A DNA stretch of 64,000 nucleotides from Streptomyces sp. NBC_00539 (lineage in GTDB: Bacteria; Actinomycetota; Actinomycetes; Streptomycetales; Streptomycetaceae), in assembly GCF_036346105.1 (NCBI RefSeq), contig NZ_CP107811.1:6095501-6159500 (forward strand), given 5' to 3'. Shown one piece after another: positions 22,427 through 58,910 of the stretch (position 1 is the stretch's first letter; every line of letters starts with the position of its first letter). The position numbers and the translations under genes were made by a program. The notes beneath the pieces are model-generated. The model was not told the DNA's origin, ran no database searches, and saw only the letters and a list, made by a program, of their open reading frames with translations.

Positions 22427-22440
22427 TGAAACAGGTTCTA
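22427..22440. promoter_or_regulatory. KstR-type operator (TGAAACAGGTTCTA)
   Basis: The 14-mer fits the mycobacterial KstR consensus TnnAACnnGTTnnA exactly. It lies 62 bp upstream of the FadE26-like acyl-CoA dehydrogenase, in an AT-richer promoter segment. KstR is the TetR repressor of sterol catabolism; its gene is not in the window. Confidence 0.7.
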
Positions 22441-22502: not shown

Positions 22503-23693
22503 GTGCACCTCGAATACACGCCTGAGCAGGAGCGGTTGCGCAGCGAACTGCGCGCCTACTTCGCCGAGCTGGTCCCGCAGGACGTCTACGCACGCTACGA
22601 GGACCCCGCCGCCCAGAAGCGCTTCTACCGCGAGACCATCCGCCGCCTCGGCGCCGACGGCTGGCTCGGCGTCGGCTGGCCGCAGGAGTACGGCGGGCGC
22701 GGCATGTCGCCCATGGACCAGTTCATCTTCTTCGACGAGGCCGCGCAGGCCGTCGTACCGCTGCCGCTGATGGCGCTGAACACCGTCGGGCCGACGCTCA
22801 TGCAGTTCGGCACCGACGAGCAGAAGGCGTACTTCCTGCCCCGCATCCTCTCCGGCGAGATCGACTTCGCCATCGGCTACAGCGAACCCGACGCCGGGAC
22901 CGACCTGGCCGCACTCAAGTGCAAGGCGGTGCGGGAGGGCGACGAGGAGACCGGTACCTACGTGGTCAACGGCCAGAAGATCTGGACCACCAACGGCGAC
23001 ACGGCCGACTGGGTCTGGCTCGCCGTCCGCACCGACCCCGACGCCCCCGCGCACAAGGGCATCAGCATGCTCCTCGTGCCGACCTCCGGCCCCGGCTACT
23101 CCTGCACCCTCATCAACACCCTGGCCTCGCACGACACCACCGCCAGCTACTACGAGGACATCCGGGTCCCCGCGAGCCGGCGCGTCGGCGCGGAGAACAA
23201 GGGCTGGCGCCTGATCACCAACCAGCTCAACCACGAGCGCGTCACCCTCGCCGCCCACGGCACCATGGCCATCCGGGCCCTGCACGACGTCCAGCGGTGG
23301 GCGGCGCAGACCAAACTGGCCGACGGGCGCCGGGTCATCGACCTCTCCTGGGTCCGCGGCCGCCTCGCCCGCACCCACGCCCGGCTCGACGCGATGAAGC
23401 TCCTCAACTGGCAGATGGTGAACGCCGTCCAGTCCGGGACCCTCACGCCCCAGGACGCCTCCGCCGTCAAGGTCTACGGCTCGGAGGCCCGCCGGGACGC
23501 CTACGCCTGGCTCATGGAGGTGGTCGGCGCGGCCGGCTCCCTCAAGGACGGCTCCGCGGGCGCGGTCCTGCACGGCGAACTCGAACGCGGTTACCGCAGC
23601 GCCGTGATCTTCACCTTCGGCGGCGGCAACAACGAGATCCAGCGCGAGATCATCTCGTGGATCGGGCTCGGCATGCCGCGCGTCCGCCGCTGA
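22503..23693 (+). CDS. Acyl-CoA dehydrogenase, FadE26 (ChsE4)-like
   Basis: A 396-residue flavoprotein. Compared from memory with M. tuberculosis FadE26, it shares the N-terminal YTPEQERLRSELRAYFA pattern, MDQFIFFDEAAQA, IGYSEPDAGTDLA, NQLNHERV and the C-terminal TFGGGNNEIQREII. FadE26 is one half of the ChsE4-ChsE5 heterotetramer that oxidises sterol side-chain acyl-CoA. Glu245 in NHER is close in position to the catalytic base I recall for ChsE4. The GTG at 22503 has GGAGGGG upstream. No FadE27 partner follows; the next gene is convergent. A KstR-type operator precedes it. Confidence 0.88.
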   Translation: MHLEYTPEQERLRSELRAYFAELVPQDVYARYEDPAAQKRFYRETIRRLGADGWLGVGWPQEYGGRGMSPMDQFIFFDEAAQAVVPLPLMALNTVGPTLMQFGTDEQKAYFLPRILSGEIDFAIGYSEPDAGTDLAALKCKAVREGDEETGTYVVNGQKIWTTNGDTADWVWLAVRTDPDAPAHKGISMLLVPTSGPGYSCTLINTLASHDTTASYYEDIRVPASRRVGAENKGWRLITNQLNHERVTLAAHGTMAIRALHDVQRWAAQTKLADGRRVIDLSWVRGRLARTHARLDAMKLLNWQMVNAVQSGTLTPQDASAVKVYGSEARRDAYAWLMEVVGAAGSLKDGSAGAVLHGELERGYRSAVIFTFGGGNNEIQREIISWIGLGMPRVRR

Positions 23694-38785: not shown

Positions 38786-40102
38786 TCAGGGCCGTATCGG
38801 GGGCTCCGCCCGCAGGTCCCTGATGCGCTTGATCTTGCCGACCGACCGCTCCAGCGTCTCCGGATCGACCACCTCGACCCCGACGGACACCCCGACCCCC
38901 TCCTTCACGGCTCTGACCACCGCCGCGGCCGCCGCTTCCCGCTGGGCGGAATCGGCCTCGCGACGGGCCTCGACCCGGACGGTCAGCGCGTCCATCCGCC
39001 CTTCCCGGGTCAGCCGGAGCTGGAAGTGCGGGGCCAGGGCCGGGATCCGCAGGAGGATCTCCTCGATCTGCGTGGGGTAGAGGTTCACCCCGCGCAGGAT
39101 GATCATGTCGTCGCTGCGGCCCGTGATCTTCCCCATCCGGCGGAAGGCCGGCCGGGCGGTCCCCGGCAGCAGCCGCGTCAGATCCCGGGTGCGGTACCGG
39201 ATGACGGGCATGGCCTCCTTCGTGAGCGAGGTGAACACCAGCTCCCCCGGCTCGCCGTCCGGCAGTACCGCCCCGGTGATCGGATCGACCACCTCGGGGT
39301 AGAAGTGGTCCTCCCAGATGTGGAGCCCGTCCTTCGTCGAAGCGAATTCCTGCGCCACTCCGGGGCCCATCACCTCCGACAGGCCGTAGATGTCCACGGC
39401 GTCGATGCCGAGCCGGTCCTCGATCTCCCGGCGCATCTCCTCCGTCCAGGGCTCCGCGCCGAATATCCCCGTACGGAGCGAGGTCGAACGGGGGTCGATC
39501 CCCTGGCGCTCCATCTCGTCCAGCAACGTCAGCATGTAGGAGGGGGTGACCATGATGACCTCCGGCCGGAAGTCCTGGATCAGCCTGACCTGGCGGTCCG
39601 TCATGCCCCCGGAAGCGGGTACGACCGTACAGCCGAGCCGTTCGGCGCCGTAGTGCGCGCCGAGGCCGCCGGTGAACAGGCCGTACCCGTAGGCGATGTG
39701 CACGACCTGCCCCGGCCGCCCGCCCGCCGCCCGGATGGAGCGGGCCACGACATCGGCCCAGGTGGACAGGTCGCCCTCGGTGTACCCCACCACCGTCGGG
39801 CGCCCGGTCGTTCCGCTGGAGGCGTGGATGCGGCGCACCTGCGGGCGGGGGACGGCGAACATCCCGAAGGGGTACTGGTCGCGCAGATCGGCCTTGGTGG
39901 TGAAGGGGAAGAGGGAGAGGTCCGCCAGGGAGCGGCAGTCGTCGGGGTGCACACCGGCCTTGTCGAAGGCCTGCCGGTAGAAGGGCACCCGGTCGTAGAC
40001 GCGGTGCAAGGTGGCGCGCAGCCGGCTCAGCTGGAGGGCCGCGAGCTCGTCACCGCTCAGCAGCTCGCCCTGATCCCGCTCCTCGTCTGCGAAGTCCGAC
40101 AT
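38786..40102 (-). CDS. paaK: Phenylacetate-CoA ligase
   Basis: A 438-residue PaaK-type ligase that activates phenylacetate to its CoA thioester. It has the N-terminal LSRLRATLHRVYDRVPFYRQAFD, the phosphate loop IHASSGTTGRPTVVGYT, AEPWTEEMRREIEDRLGI, DIYGLSEVMGPGVA and the C-terminal RSDDMIILRGVNLYPTQIEEI. The rest of the paa pathway is not in the window. A PaaR-like palindrome lies 27 bp upstream of the start, between it and the divergent DUF2278 gene. Confidence 0.94.
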   Translation of the reverse strand: MSDFADEERDQGELLSGDELAALQLSRLRATLHRVYDRVPFYRQAFDKAGVHPDDCRSLADLSLFPFTTKADLRDQYPFGMFAVPRPQVRRIHASSGTTGRPTVVGYTEGDLSTWADVVARSIRAAGGRPGQVVHIAYGYGLFTGGLGAHYGAERLGCTVVPASGGMTDRQVRLIQDFRPEVIMVTPSYMLTLLDEMERQGIDPRSTSLRTGIFGAEPWTEEMRREIEDRLGIDAVDIYGLSEVMGPGVAQEFASTKDGLHIWEDHFYPEVVDPITGAVLPDGEPGELVFTSLTKEAMPVIRYRTRDLTRLLPGTARPAFRRMGKITGRSDDMIILRGVNLYPTQIEEILLRIPALAPHFQLRLTREGRMDALTVRVEARREADSAQREAAAAAVVRAVKEGVGVSVGVEVVDPETLERSVGKIKRIRDLRAEPPIRP

Positions 40103-40939: not shown

Positions 40940-42571
40940 TCAGTGGGCGGCGTCCGCCTCCGTGGCCACGGCCTTCGCCCAGCGGTAGTCCGCCTTGCCG
41001 CTCGGGGAGCGCTGGATCGCGGGTGTGACGACGAGCTGGCGCGGGATCTTGTACCCCGCCAGCCGGGTGCGGCAATGGGCCCGGATCTCCTCCAGCGTCG
41101 GCTCGGCCGCCCCCGCGCGCAGCTGGACCACCGCCGCCACGTGGCTGCCCCACGTCGGGTCCGCCACCCCCGCCACCAAGGCGTCGTACACGTCCGGGTG
41201 TGACTTCAACGCCTGCTCCACCTCCTCCGGGTAGACCTTCTCGCCTCCGGTGTTGATGCACTGGGAGCCGCGCCCCAGCACGGTGACGATCCCGCTCTCG
41301 TCCACCGTCGCCATGTCGCCGAGCAGCACCCACCGCTCCTCGCCCTTGCGGAAGAAGGTCTCGGCCGTCTTCACCGGGTCGTTGTAGTAGCCGAGCGGTA
41401 CGTGCCCGCGCTGCGCCAGACGCCCCGGCCGGCCCACCGGCACCGGCTCGTGCGTGACCGAATCCACCACCTGCGTACGGTCGTTGACCTCCAGCCGGAA
41501 CCCCTTTTCGGGGCCGGAGTCGTCGGCCGCCCGGCCGTTGGAACCGGACTCCGAGGAACCGAAGTTGTTCAGCAGCACCACGTGCGGCACCAGCCGCTGG
41601 AATTCGGCCCGGACCGTCTCCGACATGATCGCCCCGGACGAGGAGACGCTGAACAGCGACGACAGGTCGGTGCCCTTGAGCGGGCCGTTCAACGCGTCGA
41701 TCAGCGGCCTCAGCATCGCGTCGCCCACCAGGGACACGCTGGAGACCTTCTCCTTCTCGATCGTGCGCAGCACTTCCTCGGGCGCGTACTTGCGGTGGAT
41801 GACCACCCGCTGGCCGTAGTTGAAGGCGATGAACGAGGTCAGGGTCGACGTGCCGTGCATCAGCGGCGGCGCGGGGAAGAACGTGAGGCCGGCGCCGCGC
41901 GCCGCGACCCGCTCGGCCAGCTCCTGCGGGCGCTTCACCGGTTCGCCGGACGGCTCGCCGCCGAACAGGCCTGCGAAGAAGAGGTCTTCGGCCCGCCACA
42001 TGACGCCCTTGGGCATCCCGGTGGTGCCGCCGGTGTAGATGATGAACAGGTCGTCGGAGGAGCGGGGCGCGAAGCCGCGCTCCGGGGAGCCGGCCGCCTC
42101 CGCGTCCGCGTACGCCACGGGCGCGATCGCGGGCTCAGGTGCGCCCTCGGGGACCTCGCCGACCCGGATCAGGTGTCGCAGCCTGGTCGTCTGCGGGAGC
42201 GCGGCGGCCACCCGCTCGGTGAACTCGCCCTCGAAGACGAGTGCGGCGAGGTCGGCGTCGTTGTAGAGGTAGACCAACTCCTCCTCGACGTAGCGGTAGT
42301 TGACGTTCACCGGCACCAGACGCGCCTTGAGGCAGGCCAGGACGGTCTGGAGGTACTCGACCCCGTTGTACAGGTGCAGCCCGAGGTGCTCGCCGGGCGT
42401 CAGCCCGCTGTCGAGGAGGTGGTGTGCGAGGCGGTTAGCCGCCGCGTCCAGTTCCGCGTACGTCAGGCGGCGCTCGGCGCCGGTCCCGGGGTGGTCCACG
42501 TAGACGAGGGCCTCCCGGTCGGGGACGACGTCGACGACCGACTCGAACAGGTCGGCAAGGTTGTACTCCAC
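40940..42571 (-). CDS. fadD19: FadD19-like sterol side-chain acyl-CoA synthetase
   Basis: A 543-residue ANL ligase. From memory it resembles M. tuberculosis FadD19 through most of its length: NVNYRYVEEELVYLYND, SPERGF, IYTGGTTGMPKGVMWR, HRKYAPEEVLRTIE, FGSSESGSNG, GRGSQCINTGGEKVYPEEVEQALKSHPDVFDAL-type core (here HPDVYDALVAGV) and the final SGKADYRWAK. FadD19 activates the C24/C27 carboxylate of sterol side chains. The GTG at 42571 has AGGAGG four bases upstream and is better placed than the ATG at 42610. It is divergent from the echA19-like gene, as in Mycobacterium, with a KstR-type site between. Confidence 0.87.
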   Translation of the reverse strand: MEYNLADLFESVVDVVPDREALVYVDHPGTGAERRLTYAELDAAANRLAHHLLDSGLTPGEHLGLHLYNGVEYLQTVLACLKARLVPVNVNYRYVEEELVYLYNDADLAALVFEGEFTERVAAALPQTTRLRHLIRVGEVPEGAPEPAIAPVAYADAEAAGSPERGFAPRSSDDLFIIYTGGTTGMPKGVMWRAEDLFFAGLFGGEPSGEPVKRPQELAERVAARGAGLTFFPAPPLMHGTSTLTSFIAFNYGQRVVIHRKYAPEEVLRTIEKEKVSSVSLVGDAMLRPLIDALNGPLKGTDLSSLFSVSSSGAIMSETVRAEFQRLVPHVVLLNNFGSSESGSNGRAADDSGPEKGFRLEVNDRTQVVDSVTHEPVPVGRPGRLAQRGHVPLGYYNDPVKTAETFFRKGEERWVLLGDMATVDESGIVTVLGRGSQCINTGGEKVYPEEVEQALKSHPDVYDALVAGVADPTWGSHVAAVVQLRAGAAEPTLEEIRAHCRTRLAGYKIPRQLVVTPAIQRSPSGKADYRWAKAVATEADAAH

Positions 42572-42677
42572 CGTTCCTCCTGGCCCGAAAGTGTCCACGG
42601 CTGACCCCATGGTCGGCCCGGCTCGGCGGTCATTAGAGCGCCGGGACGGTCAACTGGGAAGGTGCGCACCAAGAAAA

Positions 42678-42692
42678 CTGACTGTGTGTCAG
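42678..42692. promoter_or_regulatory. CTGAC-N5-GTCAG palindrome in the fadD19/echA19 spacer
   Basis: CTGACTGTGTGTCAG is a perfect 5-bp-arm palindrome, the best of three such sites. It shares the flank AGTTTTCTGAC (minus strand) with the site upstream of the KstD-like gene. Confidence 0.65.
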
Positions 42693-42720
42693 AAAACTCT
42701 TGAACTGCATCCCTCCCTCC

Positions 42721-42734
42721 TGCAACCTGTTCTA
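42721..42734. promoter_or_regulatory. KstR-type operator (TGCAACCTGTTCTA)
   Basis: An exact match to TnnAACnnGTTnnA, 23 bp upstream of the echA19-like start and 149 bp from the fadD19-like start. It could repress both divergent genes. Confidence 0.75.
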
Positions 42735-42757
42735 GGTCTTCAGACGGGAGGACGGCA

Positions 42758-43558
42758 ATGGGTGGGACGGAACACCTGACCGTGGAACGCCACGGCGCCA
42801 CGCTGGTGCTCACCATGAACAGGCCGGAGGCGAAGAACGCGCTCTCGCTGCCACTGCTGGTCGGGCTGTACGACGGCTGGCTGGAAGCCGACGCCGACGA
42901 CGCCATCCGCTCGGTGGTCCTGACCGGTGCGGGCGGGGACTTCTGCGCGGGCATGGACCTCAAGGCGCTTGCCGGGCGGGGGATGGCGGGCGACCAGTAC
43001 CGGGACCGGCTCGACGCCGACCCCGACCTGCACTGGAAGGCGATGCTCCGCCACCACCGGCCGCGGAAGCCGGTGATCGCGGCGGTGGAGGGGTACTGCG
43101 TGGCCGGCGGCACGGAGATCCTCCAGGGGACCGACATCAGGATCGCGGGGGAAGGGGCCACGTTCGGGCTGTTCGAGGTCAAGCGGGGCCTGTTCCCGAT
43201 CGGCGGCTCGACGGTACGGCTGCCACGGCAGGTCCCGCGCACGCACGCGCTGGAGATGCTGCTGACCGGCCGGCCGTACTCGGCGGCGGAGGCGGCGCGG
43301 ATCGGCCTGATCGGGCGGGTGGTAGCGGACGGCACCGCGCTGGAGCAGGCCCTGGAGACCGCCGAGCGGATCAACGCGTGCGGACCGCTGGCGGTGGAGG
43401 CGGTGAAGGCCTCGGTGTACGAAACGGCGGAGATGACGGAGACGGAGGGGCTGGCCGCCGAACTGATCCGGGGATGGCCGGTCTTCGCCACGGCGGACGC
43501 GAAGGAGGGCGCCCGTGCGTTCGCGGAGAAGCGCCCGCCGCGGTACCACCGCGCGTAA
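42758..43558 (+). CDS. echA19: EchA19-like enoyl-CoA hydratase
   Basis: A 266-residue crotonase. It matches what I recall of M. tuberculosis EchA19 at many motifs: LTMNRPEAKNALS, LTGAGGDFCAGMDLKA, AVEGYCVAGGTEILQGTDIR, FGLFEVKRGLFPIGGSTVRL and the C-terminal DAKEGARAFAEKR. Oxyanion-hole residues and both catalytic glutamates (AGGTE and FEV) are present, so a hydratase is expected. EchA19 hydrates the enoyl-CoA of sterol side chains after FadE action. A terminator hairpin follows. Confidence 0.9.
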   Translation: MGGTEHLTVERHGATLVLTMNRPEAKNALSLPLLVGLYDGWLEADADDAIRSVVLTGAGGDFCAGMDLKALAGRGMAGDQYRDRLDADPDLHWKAMLRHHRPRKPVIAAVEGYCVAGGTEILQGTDIRIAGEGATFGLFEVKRGLFPIGGSTVRLPRQVPRTHALEMLLTGRPYSAAEAARIGLIGRVVADGTALEQALETAERINACGPLAVEAVKASVYETAEMTETEGLAAELIRGWPVFATADAKEGARAFAEKRPPRYHRA

Positions 43559-43578
43559 CGCTGCGCGGTACGGGACGG

Positions 43579-43613
43579 CGGGCCGCCGGCGGGCAGGTCC
43601 CCCCGGCGGCCCG
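43579..43613 (+). terminator. Hairpin downstream of echA19
   Basis: A perfect 11-bp stem (43579-43589 with 43603-43613) and 13-nt loop, 20 bases after the stop. Confidence 0.65.
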
Positions 43614-44085
43614 GTGCCCGGCGGGCTCCCGGCCCGGGCGGCCGGGTTCCGACGACGCACCGGCCCGAACCAGGAGGGGAGCGCGCTCTGACCGATCACC
43701 GCCGGCATCGCCCCGGGCGCACCAGTCGGCCGGCGGACGGCCCGATCGGACGGCCCGGCCGGCGCCGCCCACCAGGACCGGGCCTGACCGGTCCCGCCGA
43801 CCCACGGCAGCGGCGGGCCAGACGGTCGGCCGACGGGCCGAGCCGGATGGCGGGGCACACGGCTCCCGGGAACGACCGGACGGCTGCCGGAACGCCGGCC
43901 GACCGGCAGCAATGCCTGACCGAAGCGAACCGCCGGCCCCGGTCGACCGGCAGGAGTGCCCGAACGGGGCCCACGGCGGATCGACCGACCCTGCTTGACC
44001 TGCCCGGTCCGTCAGACCCCGCCGCCCCGGCCGACCGGCCCCGGGCCGGGTGTTACTCGTCGTGCCATCAGATAGGAGCCCGCAC
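43614..44085. other. Gene-free spacer rich in CGGCC/GACCGG words
   Basis: About 470 bp between echA19 and the DUF35 gene. Open frames exist on both strands but none has recognisable protein sequence or codon usage. The last 60 bp (44035-44085) include AT-richer GTGTTACTCGTCG and an AGGAG before the DUF35 start. In M. tuberculosis this interval holds cyp142 and several other genes; here they are absent. Confidence 0.5.
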
Positions 44086-45078
44086 ATGACCGCAGCCGCA
44101 GAAGCCGCCGCGTCGCCGCCCGGGGTGCTGCGTGCGCCCCTGGTGGTCGAGTTCCCGTTCACACGGTCCCTCGGGCCCGTGCAGAGCGCCTTCCTCACGG
44201 GCCTGCGCGAGAGCGTCGTGCTGGGTGTGCGGACCACCGCCGGCCAGGTGATGGTCCCGCCCGTCGAGTACGACCCCGTCACCGCCGAAGAGATCCGCGA
44301 ACTGGTCCAGGTCGCCGCCACCGGCACCGTCACCACCTGGGCCTGGAACGGCCATCCGCGCCCCCACCAGCCCCTCGACCGCCCCTTCGCCTGGGTCCTG
44401 GTCAGGCTCGACGGCGCCGACACCGCCCTCCTGCACGCCCTCGACGCGCCCGGTCCCGACGCCGTCCGCACCGGAATGCGCGTCCGCATCCGCTGGGCGG
44501 CCGAACGCACCGGAGCCATCACCGACATCGCCTGCTTCGAGCCGCACGAGGGCGAGGAGCCCACGGACCCCGAAACCGCCCCCCGAGCCGCCCCCCACGA
44601 CGGGACGTTCGCGGCCCCCGTCACCGGCATCATCGCCGAGGCCCGGCTCGACTACACCTACAGCCCCGGACGCGCCCAGACCGCGTACATCAACGCCCTC
44701 TCCGAGCGGCGGACCATCGGCGAGCGCTGCCCCTCCTGCCACAAGGTGTACGTGCCCCCGCGCGGCGCCTGCCCCACCTGCGGCGTCGCCACCACCGACC
44801 GGGTCGAGGTCGGCCCGGCCGGCACCGTCACCACGTACTGCGTCGTCAACATCAAAGCCCGCAACCTCGACATCGAAGTCCCCTACGTCTACGCCCACAT
44901 CGCCCTCGACGGCGCCGGCCTCGCCCTGCACGGCCGGATCGGCGGCATCCCCTACGACCAGGTCCGCATGGGCCTGCGCGTCGAACCGGTGTGGACCGAA
45001 GGCGGCCGGTACCCCGACCACTACCGCCCCACCGGCGAACCGGACGCGGACTACGACGCGTACAAGGAGCTCATCTGA
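44086..45078 (+). CDS. DUF35/OB-fold acyl-CoA-associated protein, Rv3521-like
   Basis: A 330-residue protein with two OB-fold (DUF35) halves. The N-terminal half (residues about 15-165) lacks the zinc ribbon. The C-terminal half (about 190-320) has it complete: CPSC (Cys215, Cys218) and CPTC (Cys229, Cys232). The OB strands include GTVTTYCVVNIKARN. DUF35 proteins are partners of thiolase-fold Ltp enzymes and MaoC-type hydratases in sterol side-chain retro-aldol cleavage. It is translationally coupled to the first Ltp-like gene by a one-base overlap. Confidence 0.85.
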   Translation: MTAAAEAAASPPGVLRAPLVVEFPFTRSLGPVQSAFLTGLRESVVLGVRTTAGQVMVPPVEYDPVTAEEIRELVQVAATGTVTTWAWNGHPRPHQPLDRPFAWVLVRLDGADTALLHALDAPGPDAVRTGMRVRIRWAAERTGAITDIACFEPHEGEEPTDPETAPRAAPHDGTFAAPVTGIIAEARLDYTYSPGRAQTAYINALSERRTIGERCPSCHKVYVPPRGACPTCGVATTDRVEVGPAGTVTTYCVVNIKARNLDIEVPYVYAHIALDGAGLALHGRIGGIPYDQVRMGLRVEPVWTEGGRYPDHYRPTGEPDADYDAYKELI

Positions 45079-46148
45079 TGGCCACGCCCCACAGGTACGC
45101 CCGCGAGGTCGCGGTCGTCGCCTTCGCGCAGAGCGACCACCGGCGCCGCACCGACGAACTCAGCGAAGTCGAGATGGTCATGCCGGTCCTCCACCAGGTG
45201 CTGGCCCGGACCGGCCTCAAGACCGGCGAGATCGGCTTCACCTGCTCAGGCTCCAGCGACTACCTGGCCGGCCGGGCCTTCTCCTTCACCATGACCCTCG
45301 ACGGCGTCGGCGCCTGGCCGCCCATCTCCGAGTCCCACGTCGAGATGGACGGCGCCTGGGCCCTCTACGAGGCCTGGGTCAAGATCCAGACCGGAGAGGC
45401 CGACACCGCGCTCGTCTACGCGTACGGGAAGTCCTCGCCCGGACCGGTACGCGACGTCCTCACCCGCCAGCTCGACCCCTACTACCTCGCCCCCCTCTGG
45501 CCCGACTCGGTCGCCCTGGCCGCCCTCCAGGCCCAGGCGCTGATCGACGCGGGCGAGACCGACGAGCCGGCCCTCGCCGCCATCGGCGCCCGCAGCCGGG
45601 CCTCCGCCGCTGCCGGCAACCCGCACGCCCAGCTCACCGGCGCCGTTCCGCAGGGCGACTACCAGGTCCGGCCGCTGCGCACTGGCGACTGCCCGCCCAT
45701 CGGCGACGGCGCCGCCGCCGTCATCCTGGCGGCGGGCGACACCGCACGCCGGCTGTGCGAGCGGCCGGCCTGGATCACCGGCATCGACCACCGGATCGAA
45801 GCGCACGCCCTGGGACTGCGCGACCTCACCGACTCTCCCTCGACCCGCACCGCCGCCGAACACGCGGGCCTCTTCGAAGCCCCCGTGGACACGGCGGAAC
45901 TGCACGCCCCCTTCTCCTCCCAGGAGGTGGTGCTCCGCAAGGCACTCGGGCTCGACGACGGCGTGGCCGTCAACCCGTCCGGCGGGGCCCTCGCAGCCAA
46001 CCCGATCATGGCGGCCGGCCTGATCCGCATCGGCGAAGCCGCCGCACGCATCCACCGCGGCGCCTCCGACCGGGCCGTCGCGCACGCCACCTCCGGCCCC
46101 TGCCTCCAGCAGAACCTGGTCGCCGTCCTGGAAGGGGACCGAGCATGA
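45078..46148 (+). CDS. ltp4: Thiolase-fold protein, Ltp4-like (SCP-x/lipid-transfer family)
   Basis: A 356-residue thiolase-fold protein. It begins VAVVAFAQSDHRRRTDELSEVEMV and includes SESHVEMDGAWALYEAWVKIQTG at the place where a thiolase has its nucleophile cysteine, here aspartate. The C-terminus has NPSGGALAANPIMAAG, where the catalytic GHP histidine is replaced by NP. It therefore cannot be a normal thiolase and is better read as a retro-aldolase-type Ltp. Overlaps the DUF35 stop and the next Ltp start (ATGA), so the three are one translation unit. Confidence 0.84.
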   Translation: MATPHRYAREVAVVAFAQSDHRRRTDELSEVEMVMPVLHQVLARTGLKTGEIGFTCSGSSDYLAGRAFSFTMTLDGVGAWPPISESHVEMDGAWALYEAWVKIQTGEADTALVYAYGKSSPGPVRDVLTRQLDPYYLAPLWPDSVALAALQAQALIDAGETDEPALAAIGARSRASAAAGNPHAQLTGAVPQGDYQVRPLRTGDCPPIGDGAAAVILAAGDTARRLCERPAWITGIDHRIEAHALGLRDLTDSPSTRTAAEHAGLFEAPVDTAELHAPFSSQEVVLRKALGLDDGVAVNPSGGALAANPIMAAGLIRIGEAAARIHRGASDRAVAHATSGPCLQQNLVAVLEGDRA

Positions 46149-47326
46149 GCAAGGCCGCGACATCGAAGGAGAGCGTGGCCGTCGTCGGCATCGGCCAGAC
46201 CAAGCACGTCGCCGCCCGGCACGACGTCTCCCTCGCCGGACTGGTCCGCGAGGCCGCGGTGCGCGCCCTCGCCGACGCAGAACTGACCTGGGCGGACATC
46301 GACGCCGTCGTCATCGGGAAGGCCCCCGACTTCTTCGAGGGGGTGATGATGCCGGAGCTGTACCTGGCGGACGCCCTCGGCGCGGTCGGCAAACCGATGC
46401 TCCGCGTCCACACGGCCGGATCCGTAGGAGGGTCCACCGCGCTCGTCGCCGCCAACCTGGTGGCGGCCCGCGTGCACCGCACCGTCTTGACCCTGGCCTT
46501 CGAGAAGCAGTCCGAATCCAACGCCATGTGGGGCCTCTCGCTCCCGGTGCCCTTCCAACAGCCCCTGCTGGCGGGGGCGGGCGGGTTCTTCGCACCGCAC
46601 GTACGCGCGTACATGCGCCGCACCGGCGCGCCCGACACGGTGGGTTCGCTCGTCGCGTACAAGGACCGGCGCAACGCGCTGAAGAACCCCTACGCGCACT
46701 TGCACGAGCACGACATCACGCTGGAGAAGGTCCAGGCCTCACCGATGCTGTGGGACCCGATCCGGTACTCGGAGACCTGCCCCTCCTCCGACGGTGCCTG
46801 TGCGATGGTGCTCACCGACCGGGCGGGCGCGGCCCGTTCGCCCCGGCCTCCGGCGTGGGTGCACGGCGGGGCGATGCGCAGCGAGCCGACCCTCTTCGCC
46901 GGCAAGGACTTCGTGTCCCCGCAGGCGGGCAAGGACTGCGCGGCGGACGTGTACCGGCAGGCGGGGATCACGGACCCGCGCCGGGAGATCGACGCGGTGG
47001 AGATGTACGTACCGTTCTCCTGGTACGAGCCGATGTGGCTGGAGAACCTGGGCTTCGCCGAGGAGGGCGAGGGCTGGAAGCTCACCGAGGCCGGGGTCAC
47101 CGAACTCGACGGCGACCTGCCCGTCAACCCGTCGGGCGGTGTCCTGTCGACCAACCCCATCGGCGCATCCGGCATGATCCGCTTCGCCGAGGCGGCGCTC
47201 CAAGTACGGGGCCGGGCGGGCGAACACCAGATCGCGGGCGCCCGCCGGGCCCTCGGGCACGCGTACGGCGGCGGGGCCCAGTTCTTCGCGATGTGGCTGG
47301 TGGGGGCCGAACCGCCCGCCTCCTGA
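46145..47326 (+). CDS. ltp3: Thiolase-fold protein, Ltp3-like
   Basis: A 393-residue thiolase-fold protein. It starts with VAVVGIGQTKHVAARHDVSLAGLVREA, has HTAGSVGGSTALVAANL where thiolases carry a cysteine, and ends with NPSGGVLSTNPIGASGMIRFAEAALQVRG where the GHP histidine is NP. Length is like M. tuberculosis Ltp3 (Rv3523). It is coupled to the preceding gene. Together with the Ltp4-like and DUF35 subunits it probably forms a complex acting on sterol side-chain CoA esters. Confidence 0.86.
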   Translation: MSKAATSKESVAVVGIGQTKHVAARHDVSLAGLVREAAVRALADAELTWADIDAVVIGKAPDFFEGVMMPELYLADALGAVGKPMLRVHTAGSVGGSTALVAANLVAARVHRTVLTLAFEKQSESNAMWGLSLPVPFQQPLLAGAGGFFAPHVRAYMRRTGAPDTVGSLVAYKDRRNALKNPYAHLHEHDITLEKVQASPMLWDPIRYSETCPSSDGACAMVLTDRAGAARSPRPPAWVHGGAMRSEPTLFAGKDFVSPQAGKDCAADVYRQAGITDPRREIDAVEMYVPFSWYEPMWLENLGFAEEGEGWKLTEAGVTELDGDLPVNPSGGVLSTNPIGASGMIRFAEAALQVRGRAGEHQIAGARRALGHAYGGGAQFFAMWLVGAEPPAS

Positions 47327-49062: not shown

Positions 49063-50859
49063 CTACGCGTCCGCGATGTCGTTCGCCGCCACGTAGCCGA
49101 ACGTCATCGCGGGGCCGATCGTCGATCCGGCGCCCGCGTAGCTGTGCCCCATCACCGCCGCGCTGGCGTTGCCCGCCGCCCACAGGCCCCGGATCACCGA
49201 CCCGTCCGGGCGCAGCGCCCGGGCCCGCGCGTCCGTGACGATGCCGCCCTTCGTGCCCAGGTCCCCCGGGACGATCTTGAAGGCGTAGAACGGCGGCACC
49301 CAGACCGGCGCCAGGCACGAGTTCGGCTGGACGTTCGGATCCGTGTAGTAGTGGTCGTACGCCGTGTCACCGCGGTGGAAGTCCGGGTCCGACCCGTTCC
49401 ACGCCTGCGCGTTGAAGCGGCCCAGCGTCGCCCGCAGCGCGGCGGCCGGCACCCCGATCTGCCCGGCGAGCGCGTCCCACGTCCACGCCTTCTTCGCGGC
49501 CCCCGCCTCGTACCAGGCGTCCGGGAAGGCCAGCGTCGGAAGGACGTCCTTGAAGAGGTACCGGTTGCGGTAGTTCTGGTCCACGATCAGCCAGGCCGGA
49601 ATGTGCGAGCCGGTCGCGCCCCGGTCCTTCTCGTACATCACGTGCACCACGTCGCTGTACGGGGCGGCCTCGTTGACGAACCGCGTGCCGTTCGCGTTCA
49701 CCATCAGCCCGCCCGGAAGGGTCCGCTCCGCCAGGCAGAAGTACGGCTCTCCGGGCAGCGGGATCGAAGGCCCCCACCAGGCGTCCTCCATCAGCGCGAG
49801 CGCCGCCCCGGCCCGCTGGCCCGCCCGGATGCCGTCGCCCGTGTTCTCCTTCGCCCCCACCGACCACTGGGTGCCGATCGGCTGCTGCTGGTACTGCGCC
49901 CGCATCGCCGCGTTGTGCTCGAATCCGCCGGAGCCGATGACCACCCCCTTGCGGGCCCGCACGACGCCCCGGGCGCCGTCCTTCTCCACGACCACCCCGG
50001 TGACCGCCCCGCCCTCCTGCACCAGATCCACCAGCGGACTGTTCAGCCATACCGGCACCCCCGCCCGCATCAGGCCCGCCCGTAGCCCCGCGGCCAGCGC
50101 CTGGCCCATGGTCAGCGGCTTCTCCCCGCGCAGCGCCGCCTTCGCGCCGCGCGCCAGGCACTCCGTGGACACCGCCAGTCCCTTCGCGGTGACCGCCGCG
50201 AGGTTGAGCCACTTGTAGTCCTGGCTGAACACCACCATCCCGGCGGGCACCGCCATGTACGCCGGGTTGAGGCGGGCCAGTTCGGCGCCCAGCACGTTCC
50301 CGTCGATCTGGTCGGGCTCGACGGAGCGCCCGTTCGGCAGACCGCCGGGCAGGTTCGGGTAGTAGTCGCTGTAGCCGTCCATGAAGCGGAACTTCAACGG
50401 GCTGTTGGCCATGACGAAGTCCAGCATCCGGGGGCCGTTGGCGAGGAACGCCCGCTGCCGGTCGGCCGGTACGTCGGGACCGACGACCGCCGCCAGGTAC
50501 GCCGAAGCCTTCTCCGGGGTGTCCGGCACGCCCGCCCCGAGGATGACGGAGTTGTTCGGCAGCCAGATCCCCGCGCCGGATCGGGCCGCGGAGCCGCCGA
50601 ACGTCGGGGCCTTCTCCACCACCAGCACGCTGAGCCCGCGCCCCGCGGCGGTGAGCGCGGCGGTCATCCCGGACGCCCCCGACCCGACCACGACGACGTC
50701 GTACTCGCCGAGCGGGACCCCGTCGGGGCCGGCGGCGGCCGAGGCCCGCGCGGCGGCGGCCGGCAGCACGGTGGCGGCGAGCACCCCGGCGGCGGTACCG
50801 GCGAGGACCGTCCGGCGGGCCGGGAAAGGAGCGCGTGCGTGGTCGGACCGTGCGGACAT
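49063..50859 (-). CDS. KstD-like FAD dehydrogenase with twin-arginine signal
   Basis: A 598-residue flavoprotein of the 3-ketosteroid-delta1-dehydrogenase/fumarate-reductase group. An N-terminal Tat-type signal (ARRTVLAGTAAGVLAATVLPAAAARA, Arg15-Arg16, quoted in part) is followed by the FAD motif VVVVGSGASGMTAAL. The C-terminus has HSYAGAGSTIGPAMTFGY; Tyr574 and Gly578 match the Tyr-x3-Gly that I recall as Tyr487/Gly491 in Rhodococcus KstD1. The likely reaction is introduction of a 1,2-double bond in a 3-ketosteroid, though other flavoprotein dehydrogenases share the fold. A CTGAY-N5-RTCAG site lies 46 bp upstream. Confidence 0.8.
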   Translation of the reverse strand: MSARSDHARAPFPARRTVLAGTAAGVLAATVLPAAAARASAAAGPDGVPLGEYDVVVVGSGASGMTAALTAAGRGLSVLVVEKAPTFGGSAARSGAGIWLPNNSVILGAGVPDTPEKASAYLAAVVGPDVPADRQRAFLANGPRMLDFVMANSPLKFRFMDGYSDYYPNLPGGLPNGRSVEPDQIDGNVLGAELARLNPAYMAVPAGMVVFSQDYKWLNLAAVTAKGLAVSTECLARGAKAALRGEKPLTMGQALAAGLRAGLMRAGVPVWLNSPLVDLVQEGGAVTGVVVEKDGARGVVRARKGVVIGSGGFEHNAAMRAQYQQQPIGTQWSVGAKENTGDGIRAGQRAGAALALMEDAWWGPSIPLPGEPYFCLAERTLPGGLMVNANGTRFVNEAAPYSDVVHVMYEKDRGATGSHIPAWLIVDQNYRNRYLFKDVLPTLAFPDAWYEAGAAKKAWTWDALAGQIGVPAAALRATLGRFNAQAWNGSDPDFHRGDTAYDHYYTDPNVQPNSCLAPVWVPPFYAFKIVPGDLGTKGGIVTDARARALRPDGSVIRGLWAAGNASAAVMGHSYAGAGSTIGPAMTFGYVAANDIADA

Positions 50860-50904
50860 GGCGGGCTCCGGGGGAGTGAGGACGGGGCGACGGCTCCGGC
50901 ACGT

Positions 50905-50919
50905 CTGATGCCGGGTCAG
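50905..50919. promoter_or_regulatory. CTGAY-N5-RTCAG palindrome upstream of the KstD-like gene
   Basis: CTGATGCCGGGTCAG, third copy of the palindrome. Its TTTTCTGAC flank (minus strand) is shared with the copy at 42678. Confidence 0.55.
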
Positions 50920-51048
50920 AAAACTGTTCGCAGGATCATGTGATGTCAAGGCATCCGACGCCGCCGCCCCGGTACGTGCCCGGTACGCGCCGAAGCGAGA
51001 CCCCGTGGCGGTGGGAGCCACGGGGCCTCGCGTACGGGGGACGGTGTG

Positions 51049-55879: not shown

Positions 55880-56181
55880 CGCCCCACACCTCCTCGCTGT
55901 TGCGGTCGTCTCCGGCCCCTGCATCTTCCATCGTCCACCTGCGGCCGGAAAACCGCCGTCCGGCCGCGCGAAGTCGAGCGTACGCGCGAGGGGTACGAGC
56001 CCCCGGAGTGCTTCAAGTGCCTCCCGGCGCCGGTCATCACCCGACGGCGGGACCGCTCGAACGAAGGACCCCGCCCGCCGCGATCGCTTCCCACCCCACC
56101 CCCTGATCGCTACCCTACGTGTCGGTAATCAACGGGGGGTCCACTCAGGTGGACCGCGCGCGGGGTGGGGGACAAGAAGAC
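55880..56181. promoter_or_regulatory. Divergent promoter region, nickel-binding gene and Mo-hydroxylase
   Basis: A 302-bp spacer. TACCCT at 56112-56117 could be a -10 box for the hydroxylase. A perfect 7-bp inverted repeat, GGTCCAC-TCAG-GTGGACC (56138-56155), sits between it and the start codon and could be an operator or 5' hairpin. Confidence 0.4.
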
Positions 56182-58410
56182 ATGAGCGGGCACAGCCCCA
56201 CCTCCGACCGGAGCCGGCGCTCCTTCCTCACGCACCTCGTCGCGGCCCCGACCCTCGCCCTCGTCACCCGGGCCGGGGCGGACGCCCTGGCCCCGCAGCC
56301 CGCCGACGCCGCGGTGCCGACGCTTCCCGCCCTCGCCGACCTGGTGGACCTCGGAGACCTGTTCATCCTGGCGGGCGCCCCCACCGCCGCGCTGCTCGCC
56401 CTCGCCGTCGAAGCGGACGGGACCATCCGCTTCCGGCTGCCGCGCGAGGAGGTCGGCCAGGGCCTGACCACGGCCGTCGCCGTCCTCGTCGCCGAGGAGC
56501 TCGACGCACCGCTGACCGCCGTACGCGTCGAACTCGACGACGCGCGTCCCGAGTTGCTGTTCAACCAGCTCACCGGCTCCTCCAACTCCATCCGCTCCCT
56601 GTACGGGCCGGTCCGGCAGACCGCCGCCACCGCCCGGGCCCGGCTGGTCGCGGCCGCAGCCGCCCGCTGGAGACTCACCCCCTCCGCCCTGACCACCGCG
56701 AACGGCGTCGTCCGGGCCCCCGACGGCCGTACCGCCGACTACGGGAGCCTCGCGGAGGCCGCCGCGGACCCCGCCCTCCCGGTCCTCGGCTCCGCCCCGA
56801 AGCCGGCGGCCCAACACGCCCTCGTGGGGAAGCCCGCCGGCCGGATCGACGCCCGCGCCATGGTCACCGGCGCCCAGCGCTACACCCTCGACCTCGACGT
56901 ACCCGGTGCCAAGCCCTGCGTCGTGCGCCGCCCGCCCACCCTCGGCGGCAGCGTCCGCGCCGTCGCCAACCGCGCCGCCGTCCAGGCCATGCCCGGAGTC
57001 CTGCACGTGGTGACGATCCCGACCGGGGTGGCCGTCGTCGCCGAGACCTTCGGCCAGGCCCTCGACGCCAAGGCCGCGCTCCAGGTCACCTGGGGACCCG
57101 GCCCGGCCGACCGGCTCTCGGACGCCCAGGTCCGGGCGAAGCTGCGCGCCGTCAACCCGCCGCCCCTGCTGCCGCCGCTGCTCACCCCGTACGTGGACGC
57201 GGAATTCGACTTCGCCTTCGTCAGCCACGCGCCGATGGAGACCAACTCCGCCGTGGCCGACGTGCGCGAGGACCGCGCCGAGATCTGGTCCGGGCTGAAA
57301 TCGCCGATCGTGGCCCGCGAGAGCATCGCCGCCGACCTCGGACTGCCCCTGGACAAGGTCACCGTGCACGTCGTCCAGGCCGGCGGCTCCTTCGGCCGGC
57401 GGCTCTTCTTCGACGCCGCCCTGGAAGCGGCCCGGGTGTCCAAGATCTGCCGCCGCCCGGTACGGCTGATGTGGACCCGTGTCGACGACACCCGCCACGG
57501 ACGGATGCGGCCCGCCACCCACCACCGGATACGCGCCACCTACGCCCTGGGCGAGGTGCTGAGCTTCGAGCACCGCGTCGCCGCCGCCGAAACCGACTTC
57601 CGGCACGGCCTCGGCGAGATCATCACCGCCACCGCGGCCGGCCTGCCCTCGGGGCTCGGCAACGCCACCCTCGCCCAGACGCTCTTCCTCACGACCGTCA
57701 AGTCCCCGTACCACTGCGGACTCACCACCCAGACGCTCACCGAGACACCCACCGGAGTCCCCACCGGCTCCTGGCGATCGGTGTACTCCGCCAACACCCG
57801 GGGCGCGGAGGAGATCGTGGTCGACGAACTGGCCGCGCGGACCGGCAAGGACCCCTACCGGTTCCGGCGCGCCTTCCTCAAGACCGACGCCCAGCGCGCG
57901 GTCCTGGACAAGGCCGCGCAGGAAGGCGAATGGGGACGCCCGATGCCCGCGGGCTGCGCACAGGGCATCGCCTTCCACGAGGAGTACAAGTCCCGTACCG
58001 CGTGCCTGGTCGAGATCGACACCCGGGATTCGCGGCACGTCCGGGTCACCAAGGCGGTCGTCGTGGCCGACGTCGGCCTGCCCGTGAACCCGCGGGGTGT
58101 GGAGGCCCAGATGATCGGCGGTCTCACCGACGCGATCTCCACCACCCTGCGCGCCGGCCTCCACCTGGACGACGGCCTGCCGTTGGAGGGCAGTTACAGC
58201 CAGTTCCACTGGGCGCAGCAGCGGGACACCCCGCGCGACGTAAGGGTCTTCGTCCTCCCGGCGACCGGTACGGAGCCGGGCGGCGCGGGCGAACTCGGCG
58301 TACCCGCCGCGGTGGGCGCGATCGCCAACGCGTGGGCCCGCGCCACCGGATCCAAGCCGCGCTCCTTCCCGCTCTCCTTCGACGTCGACTTCACCCCCTA
58401 CCCGCGCTAG
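56182..58410 (+). CDS. Molybdenum hydroxylase large subunit, isoquinoline 1-oxidoreductase (IorB) type
   Basis: A 742-residue Moco subunit of the xanthine dehydrogenase superfamily. A Tat signal ([13 protein letters not shown], Arg12-Arg13) heads it. Two aldehyde-oxidase-like halves follow: [55 protein letters not shown] (Moco binding) and the catalytic-Glu motif [19 protein letters not shown]-heterocycles or aldehydes are typical substrates. It precedes, rather than follows, the 2Fe-2S subunit gene, 35 bp away. Confidence 0.9.
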
Positions 58411-58445
58411 TCCGCCTCCCGCCGCGCCAGCTCAGGAGCCCCGCC

Positions 58446-58910
58446 GTGCCCTCGCACACCTTCACCGTCAACGGACAGAGCGTGACCGTCGACGCGCCCG
58501 ACGACCTGCCCCTGCTGTGGGTGCTCCGCGACATGCTGGGCGTGCGCGGGCCGAAGTACGGCTGCGGGGTGGACGTCTGCAAGGCCTGCACCAGCCATCT
58601 CGACGGCGCGGACGTCCGACCGTGCGTCGTGCCCGTATCCGCCTGTGCCGGGAAGACGGTCACCACCATCGAGGGGCTGGCCGAGGGGGACAGGCTCCAC
58701 CCGGTGCAGGAAGCCTGGCTCGAACAGGACGTCTCCCAGTGCGGCTTCTGCCAGCCCGGCCAGATCATGGCGGCGGTCGCCCTGCTGGAGCGCACCGCCA
58801 CCCCCACGGACGAGGACATCGACGCCATAGCCAACATCTGCCGCTGCGGCACCTACTTCCGCATCCGGGAGGCCATCCGCAGCGCGGCGGCCAAAATGCG
58901 CACGGCGTAG
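58446..58910 (+). CDS. 2Fe-2S subunit of the molybdenum hydroxylase (IorA type)
   Basis: A 154-residue subunit with two 2Fe-2S clusters. Cluster I cysteines are in [16 protein letters not shown] and RPC; cluster II cysteines are in [12 protein letters not shown] and [15 protein letters not shown]. It passes electrons from the Moco of the upstream subunit. GTG at 58446 has CAGGAG upstream. No FAD-binding middle subunit or XdhC-like Moco chaperone is adjacent. Confidence 0.92.

Follow-up and report, generated by a model that had tools for sequence, protein, structure and literature searches.

A five-gene block in Streptomyces resembling the mycobacterial fadD19-ltp3 region: a probable module for removing C24-branched sterol side chains

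Three described systems come closest to the five-gene block considered here, which lies at 40940-47326 of a 64,000-nucleotide stretch of Streptomyces sp. NBC_00539 (hereafter the window; its genome is G000): the mycobacterial KstR-regulon block fadD19-echA19-cyp142-...-Rv3521-ltp4-ltp3-kshA, the system of Rhodococcus rhodochrous for C24-branched side chains, and the aldolase complex of Ltp2 with the DUF35 protein ChsH2 (PDB 6ok1). In Mycobacterium smegmatis, fadD19 is needed for sitosterol (the C24-branched beta-sitosterol) and not for cholesterol, and echA19 is essential for neither; for branched side chains, the same paper cites Ltp3 and Ltp4 as indispensable (PMC6273163). Ltp2-type aldolases have DUF35 domains as their partners (PMC10398937), and Rv3521 is located close to ltp4 (PMC9782250). 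In Streptomyces peucetius, CYP125A13 hydroxylates cholesterol in vitro, and the authors were still seeking ring genes (PMC9728343). The Rhodococcus system (Wilbrink et al., as described in PMC6273163 and PMC10398937) has the FadD19, Ltp3 and Ltp4 set in common with the Streptomyces block.

In our view the block probably serves as the C24-branch module within a dispersed sterol side-chain pathway, which would be controlled by a KstR-like TetR protein and uncoupled from ring degradation. An earlier note on this DNA had described a fadD19-like gene on the minus strand followed on the plus strand by echA19-like, DUF35, Ltp4-like and Ltp3-like genes. The five genes, with this order and these strands and coordinates, are confirmed, and the family scores agree:

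40940-42610, minus strand: FadD19-like steroid acyl-coenzyme A (CoA) synthetase (NCBIfam PRK07798, 728.8 bits, cut-off 543)
42758-43558, plus strand: EchA19-like enoyl-CoA hydratase (PRK07799, 409.6 bits, cut-off 316)
44086-45078, plus strand: DUF35 protein (Rv3521-type) with zinc ribbon and OB-fold (Pfam OB_ChsH2_C in 2 stretches, and zf-ChsH2)
45078-46148, plus strand: Ltp4-like thiolase-fold protein (PRK07937, 563.6 bits, cut-off 419)
46145-47326, plus strand: Ltp3-like aldol-lyase candidate (PRK08313, 721.1 bits, cut-off 514)

The last three genes overlap at their starts and stops, with TGATG at the DUF35/Ltp4 junction and ATGA at the Ltp4/Ltp3 junction. The DUF35 protein has no match among the NCBIfam models; its closest solved structure is 6ok1_B, the ChsH2(DUF35) chain, and it is likely a partner of the Ltp proteins. 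The block shares with the 6ok1 complex the combination of a thiolase-fold Ltp and a DUF35 partner, but here there are two Ltp proteins and a longer DUF35 protein, in which Pfam detects OB_ChsH2_C twice but MaoC not at all. The region between the EchA19-like and DUF35 genes (43559-44085) comprises about 490-530 bases, depending on the start codon; it is GC-rich and contains no evident gene.

Our reference was the sterol region of G301, a genome of mycobacterial type with an Ltp4 96% identical to that of a named Mycobacterium. In this region FadA5, Ltp2 and the Rv3520c-type protein are named by NCBIfam, KshA and Mce4 by Pfam, and CYP125 and CYP142 by solved chains; the names ChsH1, ChsH2, ChsE, Hsd4A and FadE26 rest on the mycobacterial gene order. 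NCBIfam at the cut used names neither of these two cytochromes P450, and naming them by position alone was replaced by the solved-structure searches. Four of the block proteins are much closer to their own G301 counterparts than to paralogues in the region: FadD19 (44% identity, against 26% to the next FadD), EchA19 (54% against 31% to the best paralogue), Ltp4 (56% against 33%) and Ltp3 (67% against 30%). For these four, the best matches thus lie in the sterol branch, which the earlier note had proposed to check, and the orthologue-over-paralogue pattern of the FadD19-Ltp3-Ltp4 module for C24-branched side chains is present. The paralogue comparison covered these four proteins; the DUF35 protein is 38-48% identical to the corresponding gene products of 80 mycobacterial-type loci. 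When aligned with G301 FadA5, neither Ltp3 nor Ltp4 has a cysteine at the two FadA5 columns that hold the thiolase cysteines, and Ltp2 retains the first. An aldol-lyase role for Ltp3 and Ltp4 would fit these missing cysteines.

The 80 loci were recruited by G301 Ltp4 and are mostly from Mycobacteriaceae and in a few cases from bins with loose names, Bifidobacterium breve being one of these labels; M. tuberculosis is not among them. All 80 contain DUF35-Ltp4-Ltp3. The order FadD19(-) EchA19(+) cyp142-type(-) Rv3520c-type(-) DUF35 Ltp4 Ltp3(+) is found in 47 of them, with KshA next in 40 of the 47. The remaining 33 consist of 21 short and 12 full-length loci; in 11 of the 12 the FadD19 or EchA19 match is missing or misplaced at the threshold used, and the other, L312, lacks the cyp142-type gene only. 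The order that the earlier note gave for mycobacteria is confirmed by these 47 loci; in M. tuberculosis it corresponds to fadD19 (Rv3515c), echA19 (Rv3516), Rv3521, ltp4 (Rv3522) and ltp3 (Rv3523). The Streptomyces block has the same five genes in conserved order and on the same strands, with a KstR-type operator near echA19. It differs in the lack of the cyp142-type gene (as the earlier note had said) and of the Rv3520c-type gene in between, and of kshA beside it; in addition, the other sterol genes are at unlinked loci rather than in one large cluster, and the genome contains no KshA or HsaC-type match.

To describe the genus, we used a sample of 121 genomes, for which the lists of presence and absence were compiled by hand, and 20 neighbourhoods that were fetched because they carry Ltp4. 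The compact five-gene order is found in all 20. Three Streptomyces clavuligerus plasmid records align with the block over 77% of its length at 80.8% DNA identity; their annotation names four of the five genes, with no enoyl-CoA hydratase named. Conservation of the neighbourhood in related genomes, another check named in the earlier note, is thus observed, and the compact version that the note reported for this genome is indeed there but is not special to it, since it is usual across the genus sample. The ratio of nonsynonymous to synonymous substitution rates (dN/dS) is 0.05-0.27 in 30 comparisons (5 block genes in 6 genomes). Because of this order and these ratios, the block is more than a chance assembly.

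Further sterol-type genes are located elsewhere in the same genome. One encodes a CYP125, which scores 504 bits against solved CYP125 chains and 316 against the next family, CYP124, and has no match to the CYP125 model in NCBIfam. Divergent from it is the gene for a FadA5-type thiolase, which passes the equivalog cut-off of PRK07850, steroid 3-ketoacyl-CoA thiolase (691 bits, cut-off 515). An igr-like operon encodes FadE, ChsH2, FadE, ChsH1 and Ltp2 on one strand, with identities to G301 of 46, 38, 34, 51 and 66%, respectively, and another locus, L089, contains MaoC, alcohol dehydrogenase (ADH) and Hsd4A-like short-chain dehydrogenase/reductase (SDR) genes. The side-chain set of the actinobacterial 9,10-seco cholesterol pathway (CYP125, FadA5, ChsE/ChsH/Ltp2) is thus present. 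A fourth close system, the igr operon (cyp125-fadE28-fadE29-chsH2-chsH1-ltp2), likewise has FadE, MaoC-DUF35 (ChsH2-type), FadE, MaoC (ChsH1-type) and Ltp2 genes consecutively on one strand. In the Streptomyces operon the ChsH2-type gene stands between the two FadE genes, CYP125 is elsewhere, and there is no KstR-type box nearby. A second Ltp2-family protein (L087, 8516-9673; PRK07855, 578 bits; 44% to G301 Ltp2) is also encoded in this genome, and its gene adjoins that of a FadD with 49% identity to a G301 FadD.

In the genus sample, these unlinked loci occur together. An orthologue of Ltp4 is found in 87 of the 121 genomes (two of which have it split in two within a single open frame), of Ltp2 in 87 (one match being partial) and of CYP125 in 88 (one being partial, at a contig end); all three are present in 86 genomes (71%), none in 33, and only two are discordant. 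One of these two, G079, is 78% complete and has no Ltp4; the other, G073, is in 1,140 contigs and has just a 48% Ltp2 paralogue. A quick rpoB tree was made from 80 of the 121 genomes, namely all 34 without Ltp4 and 46 chosen with it; G119, whose rpoB stretch has stops in every frame, was kept. Supported branches of this tree force at least 13 changes of Ltp4, among which gains and losses are not distinguishable. In 13 independent pairs differing in Ltp4, CYP125 changes in the same direction in 12 and Ltp2 in 11, and neither ever in the opposite direction. Where the block is missing, mean genome size is lower (7.8 Mb), and the co-occurrence counts pool genomes of all sizes.

The KstR operator has the consensus TnnAACnnGTTnnA (PMC1995591). 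The window contains two matches, where 0.03 would be expected by chance; they are listed here with the gene that follows the second:

42721-42734, no strand assigned: KstR-type operator TGCAACCTGTTCTA, within the promoter region of the divergent fadD19 and echA19 genes, agreeing with TNNAACNNGTTNNA (PMC1995591) without mismatch
22427-22440, no strand assigned: second KstR-type operator TGAAACAGGTTCTA, ending 62 bases before the FadE26-like start
22503-23693, plus strand: acyl-CoA dehydrogenase, FadE26(ChsE4)-like (ACAD domains; 51% over 399 columns to a G301 FadE)

A KstR-type operator is thus found in the promoter by exact sequence match. The matched G301 FadE stands beside an SDR gene and the Mce4 operon, the position from which the name FadE26 is inferred, and the FadE26-like gene is probably in the same regulon as the block. 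Of the 20 genus loci, 16 retain 7 or more of the 8 fixed positions at the fadD19-echA19 site, and 10 retain every one. Six sites in the whole genome have a TAGAAC half. Of these, five exact sites mark the 5' ends of sterol-type genes, namely fadD19-echA19, the FadE26-like gene, a KstR-like TetR gene (L122:12904-13623), a two-domain FadE and the MaoC-ADH-SDR group. The sixth (G000:C1:2832768) lies 16 bases before an open reading frame (ORF) of L144. The same KstR-like gene and site are also found in G005 and G015, and one-mismatch sites lie between cyp125 and fadA5 in all six genomes looked at. The study that dates KstR to the ancestor of Mycobacterium and Rhodococcus also reports 2-3 KstR paralogues for organisms further removed from M. 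tuberculosis (PMC3388012). The sites described here suggest that KstR-type control may be older than that ancestor, with the reserve that the KstR-like protein misses its equivalog cut-off. As side observations on the operators, four loci, L061-L064 (G018, G035, G060 and G058), retain the block with a degraded or missing KstR-type site, and their Ltp4 is among the more divergent; and the palindrome TTGAACNNGTTCAA occurs at G000:C1:1176101 and 1176141, at 2834999 and 2835043, and at C2:53194, twice as pairs about 40 bases apart, as an operator-like motif distinct from the KstR type.

For ring degradation we looked for two markers. G000 has no match to PF19298 (KshA_C) and none to TIGR03213, the family of HsaC; the ring-opening pair of the actinobacterial 9,10-seco pathway, KshA and HsaC, was therefore not found in this genome. 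As a positive control, TIGR03213 reaches E 3e-90 or better in 10 of 10 strong-KshA genus genomes, though below its curated cut-off. In seven other members of the genus, it gives none in G000, G078 and G089, about 1e-4 in G005 and G015, 3e-17 in G049 and 7e-20 in G018. Strong KshA (>250 bits) is present in 9 of the 121 genomes, all of which carry the block, an association that is not significant (p 0.06) because the block is so common. Weak-only KshA_C matches (25 genomes), which served as a negative control, do not track Ltp4 (19/87 against 6/34, p 0.80). Across 296 genomes sampled from the class, 78 contain an Ltp4 match at E <=1e-40 (some partial), 60 of them outside the genus; all 36 strong-KshA genomes are among the Ltp4 carriers, and 25 of the 60 carriers outside the genus are without strong KshA. 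In the samples examined, the ring marker is thus confined to genomes with Ltp4, but many genomes with Ltp4 show no ring marker. Since there is no match to either KshA or an HsaC-type dioxygenase, the suggestion of the earlier note that such a genome 'may degrade sterol' is best reworded as 'may remove sterol side chains'; worded so, the reading of the earlier note is supported.

From these genes we infer substrates, an order of reactions, regulation and an end product as follows. CYP125 would oxidize the terminal methyl group to an acid, and FadD19 would convert the side-chain acid to its CoA ester, which FadE enzymes and EchA19 would dehydrogenate and hydrate. Ltp3-Ltp4 with the DUF35 protein would then remove the C24 alkyl branch of plant and fungal sterols by retro-aldol cleavage. 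FadA5 and the Hsd4A/MaoC-like enzymes would shorten the chain, and the igr-like set FadE-ChsH2-FadE-ChsH1-Ltp2 would take off the last C3 unit. The steroid nucleus would be left as a C19 (or C22) steroid; it is expected to remain because there is no KshA or HsaC-type match.

Several results weigh against this pathway. The FadD19 identity to the mycobacterial protein is just 44%, and the EchA19-like protein misses the cut-off of the strict equivalog NF051848 (370.4 bits, cut-off 400). ChsH1-like and ChsH2-like proteins are just 51 and 38% identical to those of G301, and the MaoC domain of the former is slightly below the Pfam cut-off. The KstR-like TetR protein has KstR (NF033703) as its best family and a site close by, but scores 191 bits against a cut-off of 280. 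In 4 of the 20 loci the fadD19-echA19 site is degraded or could not be located (for L062 just 50 bases were extracted), the igr-like operon has no box (>=10/12 positions) nearby in any of six genomes, and three of the exact sites (at the KstR-like gene, the two-domain FadE and MaoC-ADH-SDR) lie inside mechanically called ORFs, whose starts are perhaps too early. The motif alone is weak, because the genome contains 21 sites against 13 for a reversed control. That ring degradation is absent is judged from two markers, and a 3-oxosteroid delta1-dehydrogenase (KstD) exists. Finally, the protein distances of the block fit those of rpoB poorly in 18 genomes: in Mantel tests only FadD19 is significant (r 0.39, p 0.001), EchA19 (0.16), DUF35 (0.03), Ltp4 (0.15) and Ltp3 (0.14) being non-significant. 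We therefore dropped vertical inheritance as shown by distance correlation; interspecies transfer is possible, and the changes on the tree are not claimed as losses.

The moderate identities to the mycobacterial enzymes (44-67%) would also suit a pathway in which the substrate is a non-sterol branched isoprenoid acid, such as a hopanoid, carotenoid or terpenoid tail, on which CYP125 and the igr-like set would also act, so that the likeness to sterol genes reflects shared chemistry. The lack of a KshA or HsaC-type match in the window genome, the rarity of strong KshA in the genus (9/121) and the fact that, among solved families, the P450 is second closest to CYP124, a methyl-branched lipid hydroxylase, point the same way. 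We nevertheless regard this as improbable, since CYP125 by its score margin, the FadA5 equivalog, Ltp2 at 66% and the KstR-type sites all belong to the sterol set, and in vitro hydroxylation of cholesterol is on record for one Streptomyces CYP125 (PMC9728343). Still less probable is a relic, with a complete sterol pathway in the past of the genus, subsequent loss of the ring genes, and side-chain genes that are now decaying: strong KshA persists in nine genomes, all with the block, and the operator is degraded or was not located in 4 of the 20 loci, but the low dN/dS, the joint presence and absence of three unlinked loci through at least 13 supported changes, and the lack of an in-frame stop in Ltp4 among the matches listed do not look like decay. 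Generic fatty-acid beta-oxidation genes that stand together by chance and carry over-annotated sterol names could be imagined, because FadD and crotonase families are large and EchA19 is below its strict cut-off; we rejected this explanation as very improbable on the orthologue-over-paralogue matches, the five-gene order common to mycobacteria and the co-occurrence with CYP125 and Ltp2. Removal of sterol side chains thus remains our preferred reading of the block.

Other genes in the window are of less direct concern. The KstD gene is as follows:

49063-51021, minus strand: 3-oxosteroid delta1-dehydrogenase (KstD; PRK07843, 903 bits, cut-off 788)

It is near the block in only one of the 20 neighbourhoods, L047, that of the closest relative; we rejected it as a block member and regard it as a lineage-specific neighbour. 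By eye its product has a Tat-like (twin-arginine translocation) N-terminus, and the best solved match is 7p18. A PaaK phenylacetate-CoA ligase is encoded at 38786-40102 (TIGR02155, 702 bits, cut-off 646), with a homologue inside the fetched 20 kb at 14 of the 20 neighbourhoods. At 56119-58910, the translations, read by eye, contain a molybdenum hydroxylase-like large subunit and a 2Fe-2S subunit.

Among the matches listed in the open-licence PMC literature, no title deals with a sterol regulon of Streptomyces that is limited to the side chain. A cholesterol pathway has been described for 1 of over 50 Streptomyces species (PMC4810484). A survey based on ring genes thus counts few Streptomyces as steroid degraders, yet the three unlinked side-chain loci occur together in most of the sample.

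If the pathway is true, it would be part of an answer to the question, left by PMC9728343, of which genes act with CYP125A13 of S. peucetius, and KstR-type control would be placed earlier than proposed in PMC3388012. More broadly, it is possible, and we put it forward tentatively, that most Streptomyces are sterol 'tail-cutters' that, under a KstR-type repressor, convert plant and fungal side chains to C2 and C3 units and leave the C19/C22 nucleus; in that case the KstR-type side-chain regulon would predate the common ancestor of Mycobacterium and Rhodococcus and could be separated from ring degradation. The side chains would yield propionyl-CoA, a polyketide precursor. If the genes work, common soil bacteria would modify sterols on a large scale, and Streptomyces would be natural makers of C19/C22 steroids, which are starting materials of the steroid industry.

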